From Marinobacter sp. JH2 (GTDB lineage: Bacteria > Pseudomonadota > Gammaproteobacteria > Pseudomonadales > Oleiphilaceae): a stretch of DNA of 64,000 bases. Under the pieces are notes generated by a model. It worked only from the letters and a program-made list of their open reading frames with translations, was not told where the DNA came from and did not search any database. Made by a program: the position numbers and the translations under genes. Shown one piece after another: positions 48,119-59,431 of the stretch. Position 1 is the stretch's first letter; the number at the start of each line of letters is the position of its first letter. The DNA lies in contig NZ_CP037934.1 of the NCBI RefSeq assembly GCF_004353225.1, forward strand, positions 3,620,731 to 3,684,730. Direction: 5' to 3'.

Positions 48119-49348
48119 GTGAAATCACAACCATTACCGTCCCTTATTGGTGGCGCAAGTATCATCGCCAGTGTGTGCGTGGGTGCTGGCATGCTTGGTT
48201 TGCCCAGTTCCGGTGCCGGAGCCTGGACTGTCTGGTCCAGTCTGGCTCTGGTGTTGACTATGGTAGTGATGACTCTCTCCGGCTGGATGCTGCTGGAGGC
48301 CTTCAAACATTTTGATTTGCGGGCATCGTTCAACACGGTCACCAAATCCTTGCTGGGTGCGCGAGTGAATGTGTTCAGCAATCTGACGGTGTATTTCGTG
48401 GGCGGGATTTTGTTGTACGCCTACATCACCTCGTCGGGTTTGATTATTCAAAGCATGACCGGGGCGGATAGCAAGCTGGCATCGGTGGTCTTCGTGCTGC
48501 TTTTTTCTTTGGTGGTGTGGCATTCGACTAGGGCGGTGGACCGGCTGTCGGTTGTGCTGGTGACTTTTATGTTGCTCAGTTTCGTGCTGGGTGTGTTCGG
48601 CTTGGCGGCACGAATTGATCTCGGCATTCTATTCGACGCTGCAAATGTGAATGGTCAATACGCGCCCTATGCCATGGCCATGTTGCCTGTGGCGCTCACT
48701 TCGTTTGGTTACCACCACTCGGTCGCCTCCTTGCGAGCCTATTACGGCGAAGAACGCAAAGCCCAGAAGGCCATTCTTGGTGGAACGGCAGTGGCTCTGA
48801 CTTTTTATCTCGTGTGGTTGCTAAGCATCTTTGGTAACTTGCCACGGGCGAGCTTTGGGCCTGTTGTGGCGCAGGGCGGCGATGTGGATGTGTTGTTGGC
48901 CGCGCTGGGGTCCGCCATCGACTCGGAGCGGGTAGCCAACACTATCAATGCCTTCTCGACGGCCGCGATTCTGTCATCGTTCGTGGGCGTAGGCCTGGGC
49001 ACGTTCGATTTTATGGCCGACCTGCTTGGCTTCGAAAATGACCGTACAGGTCGTACCAAAACCTGGGCGATTACCTTCGTCCCGCCGTTGTTGCTCTCGC
49101 TGCTTGCGCCATTCGGTTTTGTACTGGCCATCGGCTATGCCGGCGCTGCGGCGGCCGTGTGGGCCTGCATTGTTCCGGCGTTGTTGGCTCGTAAATCCAG
49201 AATGCTGGAGGGTGGTAATACCGGTTTTATGGCACCGGGCGGCAAGGCTGCGGTTGTTTTAGTGTTGGTTTTTGGCGCGCTGACCATTGTGTTTCATTTT
49301 ATGGGGTTGGCAGGGATGTTGCCGGAGGCTGAATTAGTGGGGATGTAA
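48119..49348 (+). CDS. Aromatic amino acid permease (TyrP/Mtr family)
   Basis: A protein of 409 residues with eleven or so membrane segments. GGASIIASVCVGAGMLGLPS split near 11-30 is the unwound first helix of the HAAAP family, and PVALTSFGYHHSVASLRAYYG near 191 is another family block. TyrP, Mtr and TnaB import tyrosine or tryptophan with protons. Which one applies is not decided here. The start is GTG at 48119. It ends at a strong terminator. Confidence 0.87.
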   Translation: MKSQPLPSLIGGASIIASVCVGAGMLGLPSSGAGAWTVWSSLALVLTMVVMTLSGWMLLEAFKHFDLRASFNTVTKSLLGARVNVFSNLTVYFVGGILLYAYITSSGLIIQSMTGADSKLASVVFVLLFSLVVWHSTRAVDRLSVVLVTFMLLSFVLGVFGLAARIDLGILFDAANVNGQYAPYAMAMLPVALTSFGYHHSVASLRAYYGEERKAQKAILGGTAVALTFYLVWLLSIFGNLPRASFGPVVAQGGDVDVLLAALGSAIDSERVANTINAFSTAAILSSFVGVGLGTFDFMADLLGFENDRTGRTKTWAITFVPPLLLSLLAPFGFVLAIGYAGAAAAVWACIVPALLARKSRMLEGGNTGFMAPGGKAAVVLVLVFGALTIVFHFMGLAGMLPEAELVGM

Positions 49349-49380
49349 AACGCCAGCCTCATAATGAGGCTGGCGTTTTT
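49347..49380. terminator. Bidirectional terminator between the permease gene and dddD
   Basis: AAAACGCCAGCCTCA (49347-49361) pairs with TGAGGCTGGCGTTTTT (49365-49380) around TAA. T runs occur on both strands, and it sits between two converging genes. Confidence 0.95.
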
Positions 49381-49404
49381 GGCTAAAGGTTTTAGTAGCT
49401 TACT

Positions 49405-51918
49405 TTAACTCGGAAGGTATTCCGTGCTCCAGCTTAGCCCCGCAATTCCGCGTTCAATCATTGACTCGATTTCCTCTTCTCTGTAGCCAACGCTCGCAAG
49501 AACGTTGCGCGTGGAATGGCCATATTGCTCTGCCGGTTTAATTGCTCGAGTAGACGCTTCAGCGGGGCGCACCGAGTAGTGGTCAATTTGCGTGATGCAG
49601 TGACCGCTAGGGTGGTTCGGGTAAGTTGAGAACGAAAAGCTACCGGAGCCAGTACCCGGAGTGCCATCGGCCTCACGGCTGTATTGTGCTCGAAGATCTT
49701 CAATGGCATTCGGTTGGGCTGCAGCAATGTCGGCTTCCTGAAGTACTTCTGCCCAGTAGCTGGCGGGTGCCTGGCTTAGCGCATCGGTCAGAAAATCGCG
49801 GATGTTGGTGGCTGAACTTATGCCCTGCAGTCCTTCGACCCCTTCGAGTTTATCCAGTTCAGAGTGGTTCGAATCCAAATACAGCCAGCCCTCGCTGGTT
49901 TTATAGAAGTGTGATAGTTCATGGTGGCCCAAAGCCTCTCGACCTGATGGCTCATTGAACGGTGCGCGCCCCTCATAGTCGAAGGCAAAGGAGATTTGAG
50001 CGATGTTGGTCACCGCCGACAGCGATGTGCGCGAACGCGTGGGCTGGCCGGTTTTTGCTTTATGGTAGAGCGATATTGCCATTCCCAAGCCTGCCGCAAA
50101 GCCACAGTTTACGTCCAGAGTGCCTAGGTGCGCGTGCTCTTCTGGCGTGGCCGGGCCGCCGAAGCGACTCATGATGCCGCTGTTTGCTTGAATGATGTCG
50201 TCGTAACCGATGTAGTCGGTCTTTGGGCCACGCAAGGGGCCGCCCAAGCAGTCAAGGCGACAGAACAGTACGCCAGGGTTGATGGCTTGGAGGCTTTCAT
50301 TGTCTAGCCCCAAAGGTTTCATCTGTCGCTCGGGAGCGTTGATGACGACCATGTCAACGGAGCGCACCAGACGGTTAAACGCTTCGCGGCCTTCTGTGGT
50401 GGTGATGTCAATCAAAGCACTTTGCTTGTTTACATTGGTCTGGAATGTGAACAAAACGCCAATCAAGGGATCGTACATCGGTGTGACTGTGTCCAGCTTG
50501 ATGACTTCTGCACCGAACCGGCTAAGGAACGCCGCAGAGTGAGGGCCAGCAATAACGTTGGTCAGGTCCAGAACCCGTAGGCCGTCGAGCCAGCCTTTGC
50601 CGCTAGCGGGCTGAATGGATTGTCCGGTGGGACGAGTCACGGTTTCACTTGCTGCAACAGCGGATAGTTCTGCCAGTGCCTCATCAAAGGAAACCTGCTT
50701 GCGGGGACGGGGCTGCAGCATGTCTGCCGCCATTTCCTCCAGCCAGGCAATTGGCCCTGGCTGCTTCATCAAACCATATTCGGGGTCGTTTACCTCAACA
50801 ATAAGGCCCGCAGCGTTGGTGTGTTCGTCGTTTACCCACTCTTGGGTGGTGCGGTGCGGCGCTCCGGGAATCTGGCCTTCACCAAACAACACGCCCCATT
50901 CTGTCGAGGTTTTGCTCAGGAATGCCTTCTTCATTTTTTCTGAAATGATGTCAGCCCATTTCTTAGGCAGCGGGTAAACGCCAATAGAGGTTTCGCCATC
51001 CCACTCGGAAACGGGGGCATGCAGGTCTTGCACTTCGGGCAACCCTTCGGCTTTGAGCTCGTCATAAATGCCGAGAAGCTTCAATGCACGTTTTGCGTGG
51101 TTTCGGTGAGATGGACACACGCAGTAGAACATGCGGCCATCTGCACACTCGTATGTACGGTAAAAAGGATCCAGGTATTCCTGGAGGTCTTCATAGCTCA
51201 GATCAAACTCGATGTTATTGGCTTTGCGATACTCGATCTCATCTTCACGCATGGTTTTGTAGCGGTCAGGCAAGCCTTCGATAACGTACGAGTTATAGGA
51301 CAAACCTTCCATCAAGGCAGCGGCGACAGGCACTTCGATGTGGTCCCCACGGCCTGTTTTTTCGCGCTCGAGTAGCGCGAGTACGGCGGAACTTGAGGCC
51401 AGTGATACCGCATAGGCCGAACCCAGTGGCAAGGGCGAGAAGCTTGGGTTAATGCCCATCAGTACCCGGTTAAAGCCCATGTCGGTAAACGCACCGCAGG
51501 TTGCTGCAACGACAGCTTCTGTCGCTTTCCATTCACGGCGTAGTGCATCGTTGCTCGCAAAGCCTGGCACTGACAGAGTGATCAATTCGGGGCGTTCAGC
51601 ACGAAGCTGTGTGAAGTCCACCCCCAGCTCTTTCATGACGCCCGGCCGGAAACTTTCGATAACGATATCAGCCTGTTCGATCAGGGCTTGTGCGTTTGTT
51701 AGTCCGGACTCGGTTTTCAGATCCAAGCTCAGACAGTTCTTGTTCCGGTTAAGCACCGCATTTGCTGGGTGATCCCACTGGGGGCCTTCTGGCGGGTCGA
51801 TGTGCACTACAGTGGCGCCAAAATCTGCCAGCACCATGGCTACAGCGGGGCCTGCGATCTGCTGGCCAAAATCAACAACGCGTACGCCTTCTAATGGTAG
51901 GGGGAGCTTTTTTGTCAT
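49405..51918 (-). CDS. dddD: DMSP CoA-transferase/lyase DddD
   Basis: A protein of 837 residues made of two tandem class III CoA-transferase (CaiB/BaiF) domains, about 1-400 and 440-837. Each starts with the family motif (VVDFGQQIAGPAVAMVLADFG at 14, VLDLTNVIAGPHSAAFLSRFG at 449, both given in part). The only Asp at the catalytic place is D602 in TLDVNCGF, the residue reported as essential in Marinomonas DddD. The first domain lacks a clear equivalent. DddD uses acetyl-CoA to split dimethylsulfoniopropionate into DMS and 3-hydroxypropionate(-CoA). It is divergent from dddTBC, which confirms the role. A ribosome-binding site AAGGAT precedes the ATG. Confidence 0.93.
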   Translation of the reverse strand: MTKKLPLPLEGVRVVDFGQQIAGPAVAMVLADFGATVVHIDPPEGPQWDHPANAVLNRNKNCLSLDLKTESGLTNAQALIEQADIVIESFRPGVMKELGVDFTQLRAERPELITLSVPGFASNDALRREWKATEAVVAATCGAFTDMGFNRVLMGINPSFSPLPLGSAYAVSLASSSAVLALLEREKTGRGDHIEVPVAAALMEGLSYNSYVIEGLPDRYKTMREDEIEYRKANNIEFDLSYEDLQEYLDPFYRTYECADGRMFYCVCPSHRNHAKRALKLLGIYDELKAEGLPEVQDLHAPVSEWDGETSIGVYPLPKKWADIISEKMKKAFLSKTSTEWGVLFGEGQIPGAPHRTTQEWVNDEHTNAAGLIVEVNDPEYGLMKQPGPIAWLEEMAADMLQPRPRKQVSFDEALAELSAVAASETVTRPTGQSIQPASGKGWLDGLRVLDLTNVIAGPHSAAFLSRFGAEVIKLDTVTPMYDPLIGVLFTFQTNVNKQSALIDITTTEGREAFNRLVRSVDMVVINAPERQMKPLGLDNESLQAINPGVLFCRLDCLGGPLRGPKTDYIGYDDIIQANSGIMSRFGGPATPEEHAHLGTLDVNCGFAAGLGMAISLYHKAKTGQPTRSRTSLSAVTNIAQISFAFDYEGRAPFNEPSGREALGHHELSHFYKTSEGWLYLDSNHSELDKLEGVEGLQGISSATNIRDFLTDALSQAPASYWAEVLQEADIAAAQPNAIEDLRAQYSREADGTPGTGSGSFSFSTYPNHPSGHCITQIDHYSVRPAEASTRAIKPAEQYGHSTRNVLASVGYREEEIESMIERGIAGLSWSTEYLPS

Positions 51919-52259
51919 TGGATTGCATCCTTATTCGCTATGTATCTGCTTGTGTTGTGCTGACATGAAACCGACTAGGTTTCGGTGCTAGCAATAATGG
52001 GCGAACAAAGAGCGACTGAACCAGCAATAAAAAAGACCCCTGAGGTCATATTTTATTTATAGGTGGGGCCGTGTGCTTTGAGGGTTGAGAGCGCTAGATA
52101 TAAAAATAATTAGGTCTTAGGGGCGGTTTTTTTTGGTTTCAATCGTCATCGATATCTGACGAAAATGCTTCACGCCAGATCCAGGGCGATAGGTCATCTC
52201 AAGAGCTTGCTGATCAAAGTGGGCAATAACAATTAGAGAACGCCAAAAGAGGTAACAAA
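51919..52259. promoter_or_regulatory. dddD-dddT divergent control region
   Basis: This 341-base gap is AT-rich and holds both promoters. It contains a perfect dyad GAAACC-N5-GGTTTC (51967-51983). Two inverted copies of a motif follow: GACCCCTGAGGTCATA at 52035-52050 and, on the other strand, CGCCCCTAAGACCTAA at 52125-52110. There is also CGTCA-N8-TGACG at 52144-52161. The paired motif, with its own GACC-N5-GGTC half-dyad, suits a LysR regulator such as DddR. No coding frame was found. Confidence 0.6.
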
Positions 52260-53888
52260 ATGAATAACAAAAAAGAGTTAATAAGCTCGACTGGGTGGCT
52301 GACTGGCACAAATCCAGTCATGTCAGTCGGCGCAGGTCTAGTCGTGCTTATTTTTGTTCTGTTTACTGTTGCGGACCCGGTGTATGCCAATGAGCTGTAC
52401 AGCGCCGCCAAGAATTTTATCGCTAAAGAGTTAGCGTGGTATTACATAGGCTTAGTCAGCATTATTTTGTTTATGGTCGTTGGCATAGTGTTTACCCGAT
52501 ACGGCAATGTACGGTTGGGTCAAGATTCTGATCGGCCAGAGTTTAGTAACTTTTCCTGGTTTTCCATGTTGTTTGGAGCCGGTATCGGCATTGGCATCCT
52601 GTTTTGGAGCATTGCCGAGCCTATTTCGTATTTTCAAGGCAATCCTTTCATCGCAGAGAGTCAGGAGTTAACGGCAGAGGCGGCGCAAGTAGCCATGCGC
52701 GTGTCGATATTTCATTGGGGATTGCACGGTTGGGCAGTGTTTGCCTTGAGTGGCCTGATCCTTTCCTACTTCAGCTACCGCAAAGGTTTGCCTCTCTCCA
52801 TACGCTCGAGCCTTTACCCGATCTTTGGAGATCGGATCTACGGGCCGATTGGACACATTGCTGATTTGCTGGCGGTGTTTGGAACAGTTTTCGGTATTGC
52901 GACCTCTCTGGGGATGGGCGCTCAGCAAATGAATACCGGAATGAATTATTTGTTGGGCGTTGAGGTTTCAACGACCAATACCATCCTTTTGATCGCGGTC
53001 ATTTCAATCATTGCAACAATTTCGGTCGTTACCGGGCTGAACCGTGGCATACGCCTGTTGAGTGAGCTCAATATGCGTTTGACGATGGTTATTCTCGGGT
53101 TGTTTTTGGTGTTTGGCCCTACCGCCTACTTGCTGGGATCGCTGGTGACTAACTTTGGCGACTACGTTGTTCATGCCGTGGAGTTGGGCTTTTGGGTAGA
53201 CCCGGATCCAGAAAGTCAGTGGCAGGGGTGGTGGACTATTTTCTACTGGGGTTGGTGGATCTCTTGGGCCCCTTTCGTCGGTATTTTCATAGCACGTATC
53301 TCTAAAGGCCGTACTGTTCGTGAGTTTATTCTTGGTGTGCTAATCGCTCCGACTTTGTTGGCGGTTATCTGGATCACCATCTTTGGCAATACTGCCATGT
53401 TTATTGAGTTATTTGGCAACGGCGGGGTTGTTGAGGCCGTTAATGCGGATACCACCATGGCGCTGTTCAAGACTATCGAGTTGATGGGCAGCAGCGATTT
53501 GGTCGTGACGCTGATGGCCAGTATCTGCACCATCATGCTGGTGACTTACTTTGTGACTTCTGCGGATTCGGCCACCCTGGTTGTGTGTACGTTGATCTCG
53601 ATGGGGGATACGAACCCGTTGGCCCGTTATCGAGTTTTCTGGAGCGCCGCGATTGGTTCGGTTGCTGCAGTTTTGTTGGTGGCTGGCGGTTTGGGGGCGT
53701 TGCAAACAGCCACGGTGGTTGCCGCTTTGCCGTTCTCAATCATTTTGATCATGGCGATATACGGGCTGCTGAAGTCATTGCGTGAGGAGGCTATTCCGGG
53801 GAAGTTGTTTAACGCCGCGCAAATGGTAGGTCCCGCTACGTCACCTGGCAAAAAACCGGGCGTGGCAACTGTCTCGGGCTCTCTCTGA
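52260..53888 (+). CDS. dddT: BCCT-family DMSP/betaine transporter DddT
   Basis: A protein of 542 residues with twelve membrane segments of the betaine/choline/carnitine transporter family. GAGIGIGILFWSIAEPISYF near 103 is the family first-half signature, and WTIFYWGWWISWAPFVGIFIARISKGRTVREF, split near 325-357, the strongest BCCT block. DMSP is a sulfonium analogue of glycine betaine. Between dddD and dddB this transporter is the one called DddT in Marinomonas. AGAGGT precedes the ATG. It is the first gene of dddTBC. Confidence 0.92.
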   Translation: MNNKKELISSTGWLTGTNPVMSVGAGLVVLIFVLFTVADPVYANELYSAAKNFIAKELAWYYIGLVSIILFMVVGIVFTRYGNVRLGQDSDRPEFSNFSWFSMLFGAGIGIGILFWSIAEPISYFQGNPFIAESQELTAEAAQVAMRVSIFHWGLHGWAVFALSGLILSYFSYRKGLPLSIRSSLYPIFGDRIYGPIGHIADLLAVFGTVFGIATSLGMGAQQMNTGMNYLLGVEVSTTNTILLIAVISIIATISVVTGLNRGIRLLSELNMRLTMVILGLFLVFGPTAYLLGSLVTNFGDYVVHAVELGFWVDPDPESQWQGWWTIFYWGWWISWAPFVGIFIARISKGRTVREFILGVLIAPTLLAVIWITIFGNTAMFIELFGNGGVVEAVNADTTMALFKTIELMGSSDLVVTLMASICTIMLVTYFVTSADSATLVVCTLISMGDTNPLARYRVFWSAAIGSVAAVLLVAGGLGALQTATVVAALPFSIILIMAIYGLLKSLREEAIPGKLFNAAQMVGPATSPGKKPGVATVSGSL

Positions 53889-53959
53889 GGCTTAACAAAA
53901 ACAATAAGGGCCTCGTTTCCGTTAGTGGGGCCCCTAATTCAGAAACAGATGGAGCAATT

Positions 53960-55117
53960 ATGGTTACTCAAGTCATTCTCCCTCGCATCCTGCAAACCGG
54001 TGAAGGGGCCTCGCAGCAACTTCCGGAGGTTTTGGCTAGCCTGGGCTGCAGCCGCCCATTAATTATCACTGATAAAATGATGGTCCAACTGGGCTATACC
54101 GAGACCATTCAGGGGTGTCTGGCCGCTAGTGATTTATCAGCTGATGTGTTCGATGACACTGTGCCGGAACCCACGGTCAGCTCAATACAAGCAGGCGTTG
54201 CCAAAGTTCGCGACGGTGATTACGACAGTATCATCGCCCTTGGTGGTGGCAGCCCGATCGATAGTGCAAAGGCCATCAGTATTCTAGGCAAATTTGGCGG
54301 CACGATGCGAGATTATAAATTCCCGCGCATTGTCAACGAGCTGGGTTTGCCGATCATCGCTATTCCCACCACCGCAGGTACCGGTTCAGAAGTGACCCGC
54401 GTGACGATCATCACAGACGAGTCTAACGATGAAAAGATGTTGTGTATGGGGGTGGGCTTTATGCCTGTGGCGGCGCTGGTCGACTTTAATCTAACCCTCA
54501 GTTTGCCCAAGCGAACGACTGCCGATACCGGCATTGATGCGTTAACGCACGCAATGGAAGCATACGTCAGTCGTAAGGCGAGCCTATACACCGACGCTCA
54601 AGCTATCGCGGCAATGCGGCTCATCGGCCCGAACCTCCGGCGGGTGTTCCATGATGGTTCTGACAAAAAAGCTCGCGAGCAAGTCATGCTGGGGTCTACT
54701 TTGGCTGGAATTGCGTTTTCCAATGCATCTGTTGCTCTAGTGCATGGGATGAGCCGACCTATTGGCGCCGCTTTCCATGTGCCTCACGGGCTGTCTAACG
54801 CCATGTTGCTCCCAGCGGTCACCGAGTACTCGATTCCCGCTGCCGCCGAGCGTTATGCAGACTGTGCTCGCGCCATGGGGGTTGCGTCGGAACAAGACAG
54901 CACTGACGTCGCGAACAGTAAGCTGATGGCGGAGCTGTATGCCTTGAATGATGAGTTAGAGGTGCCAACCCCGGAAATGTTCGGCATCGATCGCGGCGAG
55001 TTTTTCCACCTGTTGCCAACGATGGCCGAGCAGGCACTGCAATCCGGGTCCCCTGGAAACAACCCTCGGGTCCCCAGTGCCGAAGAAATTATCGAGCTTT
55101 ACAAAAAACTTTGGTAA
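53960..55117 (+). CDS. dddB: Iron-containing alcohol dehydrogenase DddB
   Basis: A protein of 385 residues in the Fe-dependent alcohol dehydrogenase family: GGGSPIDSAKAISI near 94 for NAD binding, TTAGTGSEVTRVTII near 137, and metal ligands in DALTHAMEAYVS near 195, LVHGMSRPIG near 262 and FHVPHG near 275. In DMSP users DddB oxidises 3-hydroxypropionate to malonate semialdehyde. It follows dddT after 71 bases and precedes dddC. A GGAG lies just upstream of the ATG. Confidence 0.92.
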   Translation: MVTQVILPRILQTGEGASQQLPEVLASLGCSRPLIITDKMMVQLGYTETIQGCLAASDLSADVFDDTVPEPTVSSIQAGVAKVRDGDYDSIIALGGGSPIDSAKAISILGKFGGTMRDYKFPRIVNELGLPIIAIPTTAGTGSEVTRVTIITDESNDEKMLCMGVGFMPVAALVDFNLTLSLPKRTTADTGIDALTHAMEAYVSRKASLYTDAQAIAAMRLIGPNLRRVFHDGSDKKAREQVMLGSTLAGIAFSNASVALVHGMSRPIGAAFHVPHGLSNAMLLPAVTEYSIPAAAERYADCARAMGVASEQDSTDVANSKLMAELYALNDELEVPTPEMFGIDRGEFFHLLPTMAEQALQSGSPGNNPRVPSAEEIIELYKKLW

Positions 55118-55193
55118 CGAACGGTGGTCGGTTCACTTTTTGTACAACAACAAACCTCGCACTGGCTGCGAGAATACTCTTTGAGGAGATAAA

Positions 55194-56690
55194 ATGAATA
55201 CCATAGGTCATTTGATTGGCGGGCAGATGGTTGCCGACGAAAGCCGCACCCAGCTGGTTTTTAACCCTTCGACCGGCGAGGCGACGCGGCAGGTCGCCTT
55301 GGCCTCTAAGGCCACTGTAGAGCAGGCTATTGCTGCAGCAGAAGCTGCCTACCCTGCATGGCGCGATACCCCGGCGATCAAGCGTGCTCGTATCATGTTC
55401 CGTTTCAAGGAGTTGCTGGAGCAAAACGCGGATCACATTGCGCGGCTTATCGGGGAAGAGCACGGCAAAATCCAGCACGATGCGCTGGGAGAGCTGCAGC
55501 GTGGCATTGAGAACGTGGAATACGCCTGTGGCGCTCCTGAGTTTCTTAAAGGTGAACATAGCCCGAAGGTTGGCCCCGGCATTGATACCTGGAGTGAGTT
55601 TCAGCCGCTGGGCGTTGTTGCGGGTATAACGCCGTTCAATTTCCCGGCCATGGTGCCGTTGTGGATGTACCCCATGGCGATTGTTTGCGGAAACTGTTTC
55701 ATTTTGAAACCATCGGAGCGAGATCCTAGCTCAACATTGTTTATTGCCCAGTTATTGCAGGAAGCTGGTCTGCCCGACGGCGTGATGAACGTGGTCAACG
55801 GCGATAAGGAAGCGGTAGATACCTTGCTCACAGATGTTCGTATCCAGGCAGTCAGTTTTGTCGGTTCAACACCAATCGCGGAATACATCTACAGTACCGC
55901 CAGTGCCCATGGTAAGCGTTGTCAGGCATTGGGCGGCGCGAAAAATCACGCCATCGTTATGCCCGATGCTGATATGGACAATGCGGTGAACCAATTGTTA
56001 GGGGCTGCGTTTGGCTCTTCTGGCGAACGCTGCATGGCGTTGTCGGTTGCGGTTGCCGTGGGTGATGCGGCTGGCGATGCGTTGGTTGCCAAGATGGCCG
56101 AGGCCATGAAAACCCTGAAAGTGGGGGCCTACAGTGAAGCCAGTAATGATTTTGGCCCGGTGATTACAGGCCAGCACCGCGATAAGGTCGTGGGTTATAT
56201 CAATAGCGCGGAGCAGCAGGGCGCGCGCATTGTTGTGGATGGCCGCAACCAAGTTGTGGCTGGCCACGAAAATGGTTTCTTCGTTGGTGGTACGTTGATT
56301 GATCAGGTTACCCCTGAGATGACCAGCTACCAGGAAGAAATCTTTGGGCCGGTGTTGCAGGTCATGCGAGTGAATACGATGCAAGAAGCCATGGACCTGA
56401 TCAACGCTCATGAGTACGGCAACGGCACCTGTATATTCACCCGTGATGGCGAAGCTGCTCGCTACTTCACCGACAACATCATGGTGGGCATGGTTGGTGT
56501 TAACGTGCCTTTGCCGGTGCCGGTGGCGTATCACAGTTTTGGAGGCTGGAAGCGGTCCCTGTTTGGTGACTTGCATGCCTATGGCCCGGATGGCGTGCGC
56601 TTCTATACGCGTCGTAAGGCCATAACCCAACGCTGGCCTTCCGCCGGAGTGCGGGAAGGTGCCGAGTTCTCGATGCCAACTATGAAGTAA
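55194..56690 (+). CDS. dddC: CoA-acylating (methyl)malonate-semialdehyde dehydrogenase DddC
   Basis: A protein of 498 residues of the MmsA type: ITPFNFPAMVPLWMYPMAI near 145, VSFVGSTPIAEYIY near 222, the catalytic Cys in SGERCMALSVAV near 284, and SFGGWKRSLFGDLHAYGPDG near 449. MmsA-type enzymes oxidise malonate or methylmalonate semialdehyde to acetyl- or propionyl-CoA and CO2. In this place it completes the DMSP carbon route. GAGGAG precedes the ATG, and a strong terminator follows, closing the dddTBC operon. Confidence 0.92.
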   Translation: MNTIGHLIGGQMVADESRTQLVFNPSTGEATRQVALASKATVEQAIAAAEAAYPAWRDTPAIKRARIMFRFKELLEQNADHIARLIGEEHGKIQHDALGELQRGIENVEYACGAPEFLKGEHSPKVGPGIDTWSEFQPLGVVAGITPFNFPAMVPLWMYPMAIVCGNCFILKPSERDPSSTLFIAQLLQEAGLPDGVMNVVNGDKEAVDTLLTDVRIQAVSFVGSTPIAEYIYSTASAHGKRCQALGGAKNHAIVMPDADMDNAVNQLLGAAFGSSGERCMALSVAVAVGDAAGDALVAKMAEAMKTLKVGAYSEASNDFGPVITGQHRDKVVGYINSAEQQGARIVVDGRNQVVAGHENGFFVGGTLIDQVTPEMTSYQEEIFGPVLQVMRVNTMQEAMDLINAHEYGNGTCIFTRDGEAARYFTDNIMVGMVGVNVPLPVPVAYHSFGGWKRSLFGDLHAYGPDGVRFYTRRKAITQRWPSAGVREGAEFSMPTMK

Positions 56691-56726
56691 GTGTTCAGGG
56701 CGAACTATTAAAATTAGCAAGTTGGT

Positions 56727-56764
56727 GGCGGCGGTGTGCTTGTTTTAGGAGCCGCCGCCTTTTT
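56727..56764 (+). terminator. Terminator of dddTBC
   Basis: GGCGGCGG (56727-56734) pairs with CCGCCGCC (56752-56759) around 17 bases, followed by five T. It lies 36 bases after dddC, so dddR probably has its own promoter. Confidence 0.85.
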
Positions 56765-56830
56765 CGTGCCTAGCATTACCGTGAGGGATGAAACAAAATA
56801 GGACTCCTAACTATAAAAAGAGTTTGCTCC

Positions 56831-57736
56831 ATGAAAAAGAGACTCCCGCCGCTAAACTGGTTGCGGACTTTTGAAGCTGCAGCACGTCACCTGAACCTGA
56901 CTCAGGCAGCGCTAGAGCTGAACTTGACTCAGGCTGCGATCAGCCAGCATGTGAAGGGGTTAGAGTCTCAGCTAGGCACCGAATTGTTTCGACGATTACC
57001 TCGAGGGTTGGAATTGACGGACGCAGGTAAAGCGTACTTACCTGTAGTGCACGAGTGCATTAGGCGACTTGCCACCGCAACAAATGAGATTTTTGGTCAG
57101 GGCAAAACCCGCCTGCTGACAGTTAGAACAAATCTTGTGTTTTTCACTGCTTGGATTGCCCCTCGGTTTGCTCGCTTTCGCGAGATGCATCCCGACGTTG
57201 GCGTGCGCTTCACCAGTAATATCTGGCTGGACAACAGCACGCACGATTCCGATATGGAAGTCCGCTACGGAAAAGGTGATTGGCCGGGCTTCGATGCTGA
57301 CCGGCTGAGTTGGGACGAGTTGTTTCCAGTTTGCAGCCCACAAGTGGCCAGTACGCTGGGTGATATCAATTCAGGTGAGCTAGGCGCTCTTGAAAGCCTG
57401 AGCAAGCAAACATTGCTTCACGTTATTGGTTATGAGGAAGGTTGGGGGCACTGGCTTGATGAATCTGGCTTGTCGAATGTCCAGTTTGCCGGGGAAATTC
57501 AATTTGATACGTTAATTACAGCAATGAAAGTGGCTGAGCACGGCGATGGTATTGCTTTGGGGCGAACCTGCTTGGTGGAAGAAGCGATGGATGCGGGAAC
57601 GTTAGTCGCCCCCTTTGAACAAAAAGTACCGACGGCGGAAGCATTTTATCTGGTTCGGCCCGCTAACAAGTACCTTCATCCTCATGCAGAGATATTTCGA
57701 GGCTGGCTTTTGGAAGAGGCTGCTAAAGCGCGCTAG
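56831..57736 (+). CDS. dddR: LysR-family regulator DddR
   Basis: A protein of 301 residues with an N-terminal LysR helix-turn-helix: LNWLRTFEAAARHLNLTQAA then ISQHVKGLESQLG, about residues 8-50. The C-terminal sensor domain is of the GcvA type (WIAPRFARFREMHPDVGVRF near 100-119). By position after dddTBC it matches DddR, the regulator of DMSP catabolism in Marinomonas. Its likely targets are the motifs in 51919-52259. The exact inducer (DMSP or 3-hydroxypropionate) cannot be read from sequence. Confidence 0.87.
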   Translation: MKKRLPPLNWLRTFEAAARHLNLTQAALELNLTQAAISQHVKGLESQLGTELFRRLPRGLELTDAGKAYLPVVHECIRRLATATNEIFGQGKTRLLTVRTNLVFFTAWIAPRFARFREMHPDVGVRFTSNIWLDNSTHDSDMEVRYGKGDWPGFDADRLSWDELFPVCSPQVASTLGDINSGELGALESLSKQTLLHVIGYEEGWGHWLDESGLSNVQFAGEIQFDTLITAMKVAEHGDGIALGRTCLVEEAMDAGTLVAPFEQKVPTAEAFYLVRPANKYLHPHAEIFRGWLLEEAAKAR

Positions 57737-57811
57737 TGCTGAAGCTAAGGTTTGTTGAGCGGCAGCTCAGGCGGCGAGAGATTAGGGCCGATTTTGCATC
57801 ACTCAGACACG

Positions 57812-57835
57812 AAAAAGCCCGCTAATAAGCGGGCT
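57812..57835 (-). terminator. Terminator after tRNA-Phe
   Basis: On the minus strand AGCCCGCT and AGCGGGCT pair around four bases and are followed by TTTTTC. It is 16 bases beyond the tRNA 3' end. Confidence 0.9.
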
Positions 57836-57850
57836 AGATCGAGAAAATAG

Positions 57851-57926
57851 TGGTGCCCGGAGGCGGAATCGAACCACCGACACGAGGATTTTCAATCCTC
57901 TGCTCTACCGACTGAGCTATCCGGGC
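57851..57926 (-). tRNA. tRNA-Phe (GAA)
   Basis: Seventy-six bases with an encoded CCA. Read on the minus strand, the acceptor GCCCGGA pairs with TCCGGGC before ACCA, the D arm is GCTC-N-GAGC, the anticodon stem GGATT/AATCC holds GAA, and the T arm contains GGTTCGATTCC. The GAA anticodon decodes phenylalanine. The 3' end faces the ddd cluster. Confidence 0.96.
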
Positions 57927-58044
57927 GTGTTGAGCTATGTGCTCCAACGGGGCGCTATTAAACCGGTTTAGGGTTTGGGAGTCAAGGCCGGCAGTTAAAA
58001 ATTTCTTAAAATTTCCGCTGTTGATCAGGCCTTGACCAGATTTG

Positions 58045-58317
58045 TTACTTTTCTGGTGGAACGTACCCTTCAGCCTTGTCGAATGGCTCGTTATTGAAGA
58101 AATGGTCCATCTGGGCTTGCAGGTACTTGCGGTTGTTCACGTCCATCAGATTCAGGTGTTTTTCGTTGATCAGCATGGTCTGCTGATTCTGCCATTCGTC
58201 CCAGGCGGCTTTGGATACGTTTTCAAAGATATCCTGTCCCTTCGGGCCCGGCATTGGAGGCATAGCCAAGCCTTCCATTTCTTTCTGGTACTTTCGGCAG
58301 AATACAGTGCGGCTCAT
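58045..58317 (-). CDS. yggX: Fe(2+)-trafficking/oxidative damage protection protein YggX
   Basis: A protein of 90 residues, the standard size, with [17 protein letters not shown] at the start and the conserved Cys7. [20 protein letters not shown] and [12 protein letters not shown] are family blocks. YggX protects iron-sulfur proteins from oxidation and has been linked to iron handling. It lies downstream of mutY, itself an iron-sulfur enzyme, as in E. coli. The gap to mutY is 49 bases. Confidence 0.96.
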
Positions 58318-58366
58318 GATGACTCCTGTGTCGATTGTGTTGCAGCGAGCATGATAACAGATCGGA

Positions 58367-59431
58367 TCAGAGCAGGGTGCTTTGCTCTGGCTCCGTCAGC
58401 AAGCTGCGAATAGGGGCTGGCAGGCCTAGTGCGAGTGCTTCGTCGCGGTGAAGCCAACGCTGGCTTTCCGAATCTGAAACCTTGGTGCTGGCGGATACTG
58501 GCAAGCGGGCCGGCTGAATGTGCAAGTGGTAATGGCTGAAGGTGTGGCGAAAGCCGCTGATCAATTCAGGGTCGCGGCACACAAGCCCCAGCTCTTTCTC
58601 GCAGGCCTCTTGCAGCTCTTCCATGCCGTATGCCGGGTCCAGTTCGGGAAGGCTCCAGAGCCCGCCCCAGATGCCGCTGGGCGGGCGGCGTTCCAGCAAG
58701 ATTCGGCCATCGTTATCCTCAAAGATCAGCATCCAGGTCGTTTTTTCCGGCTTTTGCTTTTTCGGCTTGGAACCGGGGTATAAGTGGGTTTGGTTTTCCG
58801 CATAGGCAGCACACCCGATGCTGAGCGGGCAGCTATCGCATGTCGGTTTGCTGCGGGTGCAGACCATGGCGCCCAGATCCATTATGCCCTGAGTGTAATC
58901 GCGCACACGTTGGTCTGGTGTGTGGGTTTCCGCGTGCTCCCACAGCTGCTTGAGTACAGCGCTTTGCCCCGGCCAGCCGGGTACGGCGTGGTAGCGGGCC
59001 AGCACTCGTTTTACGTTGCCGTCCAGAATCGCGGCGCGCTTGCCAAAGGCTTGGGCCAGAATGGCGGCTGCCGTTGAGCGGCCAATGCCTGTGAGCGACT
59101 CCAGTGTTTCCTGATCTTGCGGAAATTCACCGTCATAAGCCTCGACGATTTGCTTGGCTGCTTTGTGCAGGTTCCGGGCGCGGGCATAGTAGCCAAGGCC
59201 AGACCAATGGCTGAGCACGGCATCTTCAGGCGCAGAGGCAAGTGCCTGAACGTCCGGGAAGCTTGCCATGAAGGCTTCAAAGTAGGGGATGACGGTAGCG
59301 ACCTGGGTTTGCTGAAGCATAATTTCAGACACCCAGACACGGTAAGCGTTGCGGTTGTGGTGCCACGGCAGGTTGTGCCTGCCGTGGTTGTCGTACCAAT
59401 TAAGCAGTTTGTCGGCGAAAAGGTCTGGCAT
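58367..59431 (-). CDS. mutY: A/G-specific adenine glycosylase MutY
   Basis: A protein of 354 residues. The catalytic Glu lies in [17 protein letters not shown] near 36. The helix-hairpin-helix [19 protein letters not shown] is near 112, and the catalytic Asp in ILDGNVKRV near 138. The iron-sulfur Cys pattern CX6CX2CX5C is seen as [17 protein letters not shown] near 192. A C-terminal NUDT1-like domain (from about 230) recognises 8-oxoG. It removes A paired with 8-oxoG. Its ATG shares a base with the stop of the upstream AsmA-like gene. Confidence 0.97.

Follow-up and report, generated by a model that had tools for sequence, protein, structure and literature searches.

Dimethylsulfoniopropionate (DMSP) is an algal compound, and its breakdown is a main source of the gas dimethyl sulfide (DMS). 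Enzymes of the DddD family use acetyl-coenzyme A (acetyl-CoA) as the CoA donor and give 3-hydroxypropionyl-CoA as the product (PMC8163506). An Endozoicomonas acroporae strain carrying dddD uses DMSP carbon, and its DMS release has been measured (PMC7174347). Pseudomonas taeanensis MS-3 and Marinomonas atlantica Cmf 18.22 are reference strains of DMSP-lyase-positive isolates; the Marinobacter isolates of the same paper are dddL carriers (PMC9327192). Two SAR92 strains have the gene order described below plus an extra iclR gene, and their clusters have been called similar to that of Marinomonas MWYL1 (PMC10746254). In Halomonas D47, the LysR regulator AcuZ senses 3-hydroxypropionate and acrylate (PMC13104084). 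Here we describe the ddd cluster in a 64,000-nucleotide window of the Marinobacter sp. JH2 genome (contig NZ_CP037934.1, positions 3,620,731 to 3,684,730). It adds a further member, from Marinobacter, to a well-known system. The region is very probably a self-contained dddD-type DMSP cleavage and assimilation cassette. The cluster itself is familiar; what may be new to specialists is a 39-base-pair (bp) near-palindrome, present once at the dddD promoter and once at the dddT/dddB promoter, which we believe is probably the site where DddR switches on DMSP breakdown. The genes and the two candidate sites are as follows.

dddD, 49405..51918, minus strand: 837 residues, putative DMSP CoA-transferase/lyase with two CoA_transf_3 domains, Asp602 in the C-terminal CaiB domain and Ser167 in the N-terminal one
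Candidate DddR operator 1 (dddD side), 52025..52063, plus strand: 51.2 bits, in the training set of the matrix, 106 bases to the dddD start codon
Candidate DddR operator 2 (dddT side), 52097..52135, minus strand: mirrored copy, 49.9 bits, in the training set, 124 bases to the dddT start codon
dddT, 52260..53888, plus strand: 542 residues, BCCT-family transporter, probable DMSP importer
dddB, 53960..55117, plus strand: 385 residues, iron-type alcohol dehydrogenase, probable 3-hydroxypropionate dehydrogenase
dddC, 55194..56690, plus strand: 498 residues, CoA-acylating (methyl)malonate-semialdehyde dehydrogenase (TIGR01722)
dddR, 56831..57736, plus strand: 301 residues, LysR-type regulator, GcvA-like

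Alignment of the dddD-dddT gap from eight Marinobacter genomes revealed two arms that are mirror images of each other. A repeat search of the window found the arms at 52025-52061 and 52099-52135, where they are 70% complementary. The candidate operator is a 39-bp near-palindrome of the type CAATAAAAA..CCCTnAG..TTTTTTTAT. With up to three mismatches allowed, the only places in the 3.72-Mb genome that match the two-arm pattern are two in the dddD-dddT gap; the backward control has 0. The 16 arms of eight of the ten Marinobacter carriers were used to build a 39-bp matrix; G003, in which dddT is not beside dddD, and G154, which is a fragment, were omitted. The held-out scan excluded all Marinobacter loci and DddD matches below 50% identity, which left 57 loci where the upstream sequence of dddD exceeded 400 bp and 50 where a dddT or dddB gene was encoded on the other strand; sites in the opposite orientation would count as lying elsewhere. 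At 20 bits or more, the matrix found a site at the dddD promoter in 39/57 loci and at the dddT/dddB promoter in 26/50, and one site elsewhere in 1,146,371 bases. This sole site (L021) is at a contig end beside dddR, and dddT could lie just off the contig. Without the nine Vibrionaceae loci, the same threshold gives 37/48 and 26/41, respectively. The maximum in forty base-shuffled loci was 1.2 bits. In a ddd-free set of 46 loci it was 3.5 bits, once an intrinsic terminator and locus L120 had been set aside; L120, with 51 bits, contains the ddd gap itself.

The boxes occur from Marinobacter to Pseudomonas, Oceanospirillales, Colwellia, Endozoicomonas, Halomonadaceae and Porticoccaceae. In Colwellia, where dddR stands between dddT and dddD, they remain with dddD and dddT. 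The distance from box to gene is 88 to about 600 bases, the upper end being the limit that we set. At 15 bits, the dddT/dddB promoter had a site in 31 of the 50 loci with an upstream limit of 600 bases and in 32 of the 50 with a limit of 650 bases; the limit was widened after a site in L059 was seen at 616 bases. A scan for consensus promoters found 5 promoter-like sites when 5.8 were expected, none of them in the dddD-dddT gap. In M. zhejiangensis, M. mobilis, M. azerbaijanicus and genome G053 (L065, L013, L039 and L105), several hundred extra bases lie between the dddT-side box and dddT. They apparently contain a small reading frame, whose product, we assume, resembles a universal-stress-type protein.

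Several observations weigh against the boxes as the DddR operator. At 20 bits the dddD promoter was missed in 18/57 loci, and even at 15 bits 13/57 have no site there, including 7/9 Vibrionaceae, NGR234 and Phaeobacter; four of these 13 loci keep a site before dddT or dddB. Part of the resemblance of the boxes within genera can be put down to shared ancestry of the gap. Ancestry alone is insufficient, because the arms of one gap are alike and the boxes persist where the remainder of the gap is not conserved. A 17.7-bit match beside an unrelated CaiB gene (L002, L007) turned out to be an intrinsic terminator, and for this reason the counts are reported at 20 bits. This match, together with the fact that the arms are AT-rich near-palindromes, raises the question of whether the boxes are RNA elements, such as a terminator or a leader hairpin, or generic promoter A-tracts rather than DNA sites of a regulator. 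We consider this quite unlikely. Folding the two arms as RNA, each on both strands, gave results not clearly better than those of shuffled sequences (z of -1.39, -1.66, 0.71 and -0.30), which lends no support to an RNA hairpin. The only Rfam match within 49000-58500 is a tRNA. The boxes lie upstream of divergent genes, where a terminator is unexpected, and keep one orientation relative to the gene they serve.

A regulator other than DddR might also bind the boxes, such as an IclR-type protein like that of the SAR92 ddd clusters, in which iclR is beside lysR (PMC10746254). A gap of at least 700 bp between dddC and dddR, which could hold a gene of this type, is present in 10/31 loci. However, the 140-bp dddC-dddR gap of the window contains no iclR-type gene, and in 21/31 loci the gap is shorter than 400 bp, with high-scoring boxes there too (L017, L054). 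Binding by another regulator is thus a minor possibility, and control by DddR is the reading that we prefer. If it is true, the box is a self-contained switch that moves together with the cassette, and its presence in a genome points out DMSP units under DddR control. A sharply conserved site at both promoters in many genera would be a direct, testable handle on DMSP-induced DMS release; such a handle is valuable because footprinting of AcuZ in D47 was inconclusive (PMC13104084). We did not find a description of the 39-bp box in the part of the ddd literature that was covered, namely passages of PMC13104084, PMC10746254, PMC3338564, PMC7174347 and PMC13280387.

The initial annotation had assigned the five genes to one pathway comprising a BCCT transporter, a two-domain CoA-transferase, an iron-type alcohol dehydrogenase, a semialdehyde dehydrogenase and a LysR regulator. 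Profile matches bore out these families, and all five frames are open at the coordinates first noted, with dddD divergent from dddT-dddB-dddC-dddR (52260-57736, plus strand). Linked genes of the BCCT, alcohol dehydrogenase, CoA-acylating semialdehyde dehydrogenase and LysR families make up the dddTBCR set. The dddC product passes the NCBIfam profile TIGR01722 (680.7 bits, cut-off 448.5). Among the NCBIfam matches listed, DddD, DddB and DddR stay under every cut-off and DddT exceeds that of the general BCCT model only, so that these four proteins are named by no library model. Using a scan of genome contigs, we collected 62 loci that encode a DddD relative, with the best segment 57-89% identical. 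At least one homologue of dddT, dddB, dddC or dddR lies beside the DddD gene in 59/62 of them, which argues that the gene set is not a chance one.

DddD has two fused class III CoA-transferase (CaiB) domains, as expected for its family. In alignments, residue 602, an Asp (in ...HLGTLDVNCGF...), coincides with the Asp at the catalytic position of formyl-CoA transferase and YfdW, which are class III CoA-transferases. The N-terminal domain has Ser167 as the counterpart, at a position that is Asp in formyl-CoA transferase. Asp602 and Ser167 are both invariant in 66/66 DddD-like sequences. These sequences, also used for the tree, represent 66 of the 87 places found by tblastn; the other 21 were duplicates, fragments, proteins of more than 880 residues or a one-domain CaiB paralogue. 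The initial annotation had proposed to check whether Asp602 corresponds to the catalytic Asp of characterised DddD proteins. The residue, its alignment and its invariance agree with this; in Marinomonas DddD, Asp602 was reportedly identified as catalytic by Alcolombri in 2014. A search of the PDB by sequence found no close DddD, the top match being formyl-CoA transferase (3.3e-21). The AlphaFold model of DddD (mean predicted local distance difference test score, pLDDT, 85.4; predicted template modelling score, pTM, 0.91) has its best structural matches among class III CoA-transferases and racemases, with alignments of 420-445 columns against the 837 residues. Such matches cover about half of the protein at a time, as expected for two fused domains.

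In a tree built by a quick method, with the Shimodaira-Hasegawa-like approximate likelihood ratio test (SH-aLRT) as the only support, the roseobacter homologues of Dinoroseobacter and Ruegeria (L090, L108; 42-43% identical) separate from the other 64 rows with support of 100. The DddD of the window pairs with that of Marinobacter ELB17 (support 100), and the large group around them also holds the DddDs of E. acroporae, P. taeanensis MS-3 and M. atlantica Cmf 18.22. The identity to the window protein is 89% for ELB17, 79% for P. taeanensis MS-3 and 68% for E. acroporae. Thus, the protein that the initial annotation called DddD lies inside the clade of the DddDs of DMS producers, apart from distant two-domain homologues. 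In the same tree, both DddD genes of Salinisphaera sp. G21_0 (L038, L073) fall within Endozoicomonas groups; this is possibly a mixed assembly.

According to the family assignments, DddT would import DMSP, and DddD, as reported for its family, would transfer CoA from acetyl-CoA to DMSP via Asp602 and then split off DMS to leave 3-hydroxypropionyl-CoA. DddB may convert the three-carbon product to malonate semialdehyde, which DddC may convert to acetyl-CoA and CO2. The two mirrored 39-bp near-palindromes are present in the gap, and DddR probably activates both divergent units by binding to them. DddR scores 269 bits with the GcvA model, just short of the cut-off of 288. The numbering of the AcuZ effector residues, applied without gaps, does not carry over to DddR, agreement being at most 3/11 positions in DddR and 4/11 in its homologues. 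DMS release and growth of the strain on DMSP are predictions from the sequence. The same genome encodes a second CoA-acylating semialdehyde dehydrogenase (G000:C1:2037053-2038480), which scores 835 bits on TIGR01722 as against 680 for the dddC product; because of this higher score it is probably MmsA, presumably acting in valine breakdown. One YhdH/AcuI-type reductase (G000:C1:3553673-3554626; 453 bits, over the cut-off) is encoded away from the ddd cluster and could handle acryloyl-CoA.

The closest solved relatives of DddT are trimethylamine and choline transporters, followed by BetP. The structures of Psychrobacter DddT score at most 243.9 bits with the window protein, which is lower than the trimethylamine and choline transporters. 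Since the closest solved transporters carry these compounds, another betaine-like substrate of DddT is possible. The cluster might then serve another zwitterionic osmolyte, a betaine or a sulfonium such as gonyol. In that case an acid other than DMSP would enter through the BCCT protein and be activated by the two-domain CoA-transferase. On the glycine-betaine BCCT model DddT reaches 558 bits, below the cut-off of 650, and the substrates of BCCT proteins are hard to distinguish by sequence similarity alone (PMC13270143). On the other hand, DddD groups with the DddDs of DMS producers and keeps Asp602, dddB and dddC suit a three-carbon product, and a similar gene set is found in organisms that are reported to grow on DMSP. 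A substrate other than DMSP therefore seems very improbable to us, and DddT is the probable DMSP importer.

The aromatic substrate box of BCCT proteins, WTIFYWGWWISW, is present at DddT residue 325 and aligns with that of BetP. At the positions of the BetP Na1 site, matched by motif only, DddT has TVFGI (Thr and Ile) and BetP has TVFGT. The type of Psychrobacter D2, with a new Na1 site, needs both Na1 positions to be hydrophobic; one of them is hydrophilic in the window protein, and this assignment was rejected. With Thr and Ile at these positions, DddT belongs with the DddTs nearer BetP (a group in PMC13270143). In Marinobacter genome G026 (L104:6227-6687), dddT looks truncated, with two short matches over about 460 bp, and this remnant lies between an intact-looking dddD and dddB, dddC and dddR.

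We also compared the distribution of the cluster within the genus. DddD is encoded in 10/124 Marinobacter genomes, and the four genomes closest to the window strain (AceE 97-98%, MutY 92-94%; the AceE query was identified by TIGR00759) are not among the ten carriers. Two features outside the pathway flank the cluster.

Aromatic amino acid permease gene (left flank), 48119..49348, plus strand: kept in sister genomes without ddd
tRNA-Phe(GAA) (right flank), 57851..57926, minus strand: the cluster is on the 3' side of the tRNA

All four sister genomes keep the permease gene and tRNA-Phe, with 0.9-2.8 kb of other DNA between them; in G031 the proteins encoded in this interval are one of the GGDEF and one of the PEP-CTERM type. 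The spacing between permease and tRNA-Phe varies widely among the Marinobacter genomes read. In three carriers whose ddd and MutY regions were read (G145, which is ELB17, G026 and G053), the cluster is absent from the MutY site, and none of the window's neighbours is present at five further Marinobacter ddd loci. The identity to ELB17 is 95% for DddB, 92% for DddC and 89% for DddD, compared with 85% for AceE and 75% for MutY. For M. zhejiangensis (G167) it is 89% for AceE and 83% for DddB. This inversion of ranks between DddB and AceE suggests that the cluster moved horizontally between members of the genus. We therefore think it likely that the ddd cassette was gained horizontally, at the variable site between the amino acid permease gene and tRNA-Phe.

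The cluster might instead be ancestral in Marinobacter and lost from most species. The Marinobacter DddDs do group together, 8/9 rows below one fork (support 87) being Marinobacter. Against this stand the small number of carriers, the absence of the cluster from the four closest genomes and its presence at other chromosomal sites in the carriers, as well as the opposite rankings of ELB17 and M. zhejiangensis by DddB (95% and 83%) and by AceE (85% and 89%). In addition, a Granulosicoccaceae sequence is placed among the Marinobacter DddDs. Ancestry followed by loss is thus unlikely, and horizontal gain remains our preferred explanation. A point against it is that no stretch of more than 10 bp from the 3'-terminal 40 bases of tRNA-Phe recurs exactly elsewhere in the window. 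The tRNA as an integration site is unsupported, a repeat of its 3' end not having been found at the other boundary. There is no integrase among the five ddd genes and their two neighbours, to which this search was confined.

The interval between dddR and mutY (57737-58317) contains, besides the tRNA, a frame of 90 residues (about 58045-58317, minus strand), which we take to be YggX-like. A DddL-type cupin (PF16867) was found in 11/124 Marinobacter genomes, in 10 of them over the cut-off, and the overlap with the DddD carriers was 0. Mutual exclusion of dddD and the cupin was considered and set aside: as an overlap of about 0.9 is expected by chance, its absence is not evidence of exclusion.

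Across the 62 loci, the exact order of the window, with dddD divergent from dddT-dddB-dddC-dddR, occurs in 17, and dddR lies between dddT and dddD in 12. The BCCT gene is downstream of dddD in five loci, all of them from named Marinomonas species. The remaining loci have partial or other orders. The initial annotation had likened the cluster in content and order to that of Marinomonas. This is correct for MWYL1 as printed (PMC10746254) and for an uncultured Marinomonas (L024) with the exact order of the window, but not for the five named species. A separate observation concerns the Pseudomonas aeruginosa plasmid pF045_1 (L091) from a cystic fibrosis lung. The DddD encoded there is 73% identical and is accompanied by a dddB-like gene and LysR genes; the expected place of dddT is taken by an IS66 element, dddC is not in its (incomplete) gene table there, and a box above 15 bits remains only before dddB.

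Among the described systems, Marinomonas sp. MWYL1 and SAR92 H921/H231 share with the window a dddD divergent from dddT-dddB-dddC and a LysR gene downstream; the SAR92 clusters hold iclR, which the window cluster does not have, and the likeness to MWYL1 is one of published description rather than of compared sequences (PMC10746254). Marinobacter sp. ELB17 (L012) and P. taeanensis MS-3 (L070) have the same five genes in the same order. The ELB17 locus has none of the window's neighbours, and the MS-3 locus has a dddC-dddR gap of 980 bp, compared with 140 bp in the window. The dddD operon of E. acroporae (L068), from the strain with measured DMS release, encodes the same enzymes (PMC7174347); unlike the window, it has dddR between dddT and dddD. 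The ddd-acu cluster of Halomonas sp. D47/HTNK1 shares DddD, DddT, DddC and a LysR regulator, AcuZ, with the window, but dddA replaces dddB, acuN, acuK, acuI and acuR are present, and dddT and dddD are co-transcribed (PMC13104084). According to the same paper, AcuZ binds upstream of dddT and dddC, and the sequences required for its binding (AATTGATT, TATA-N8-GATA) differ from the 39-bp box of the window.

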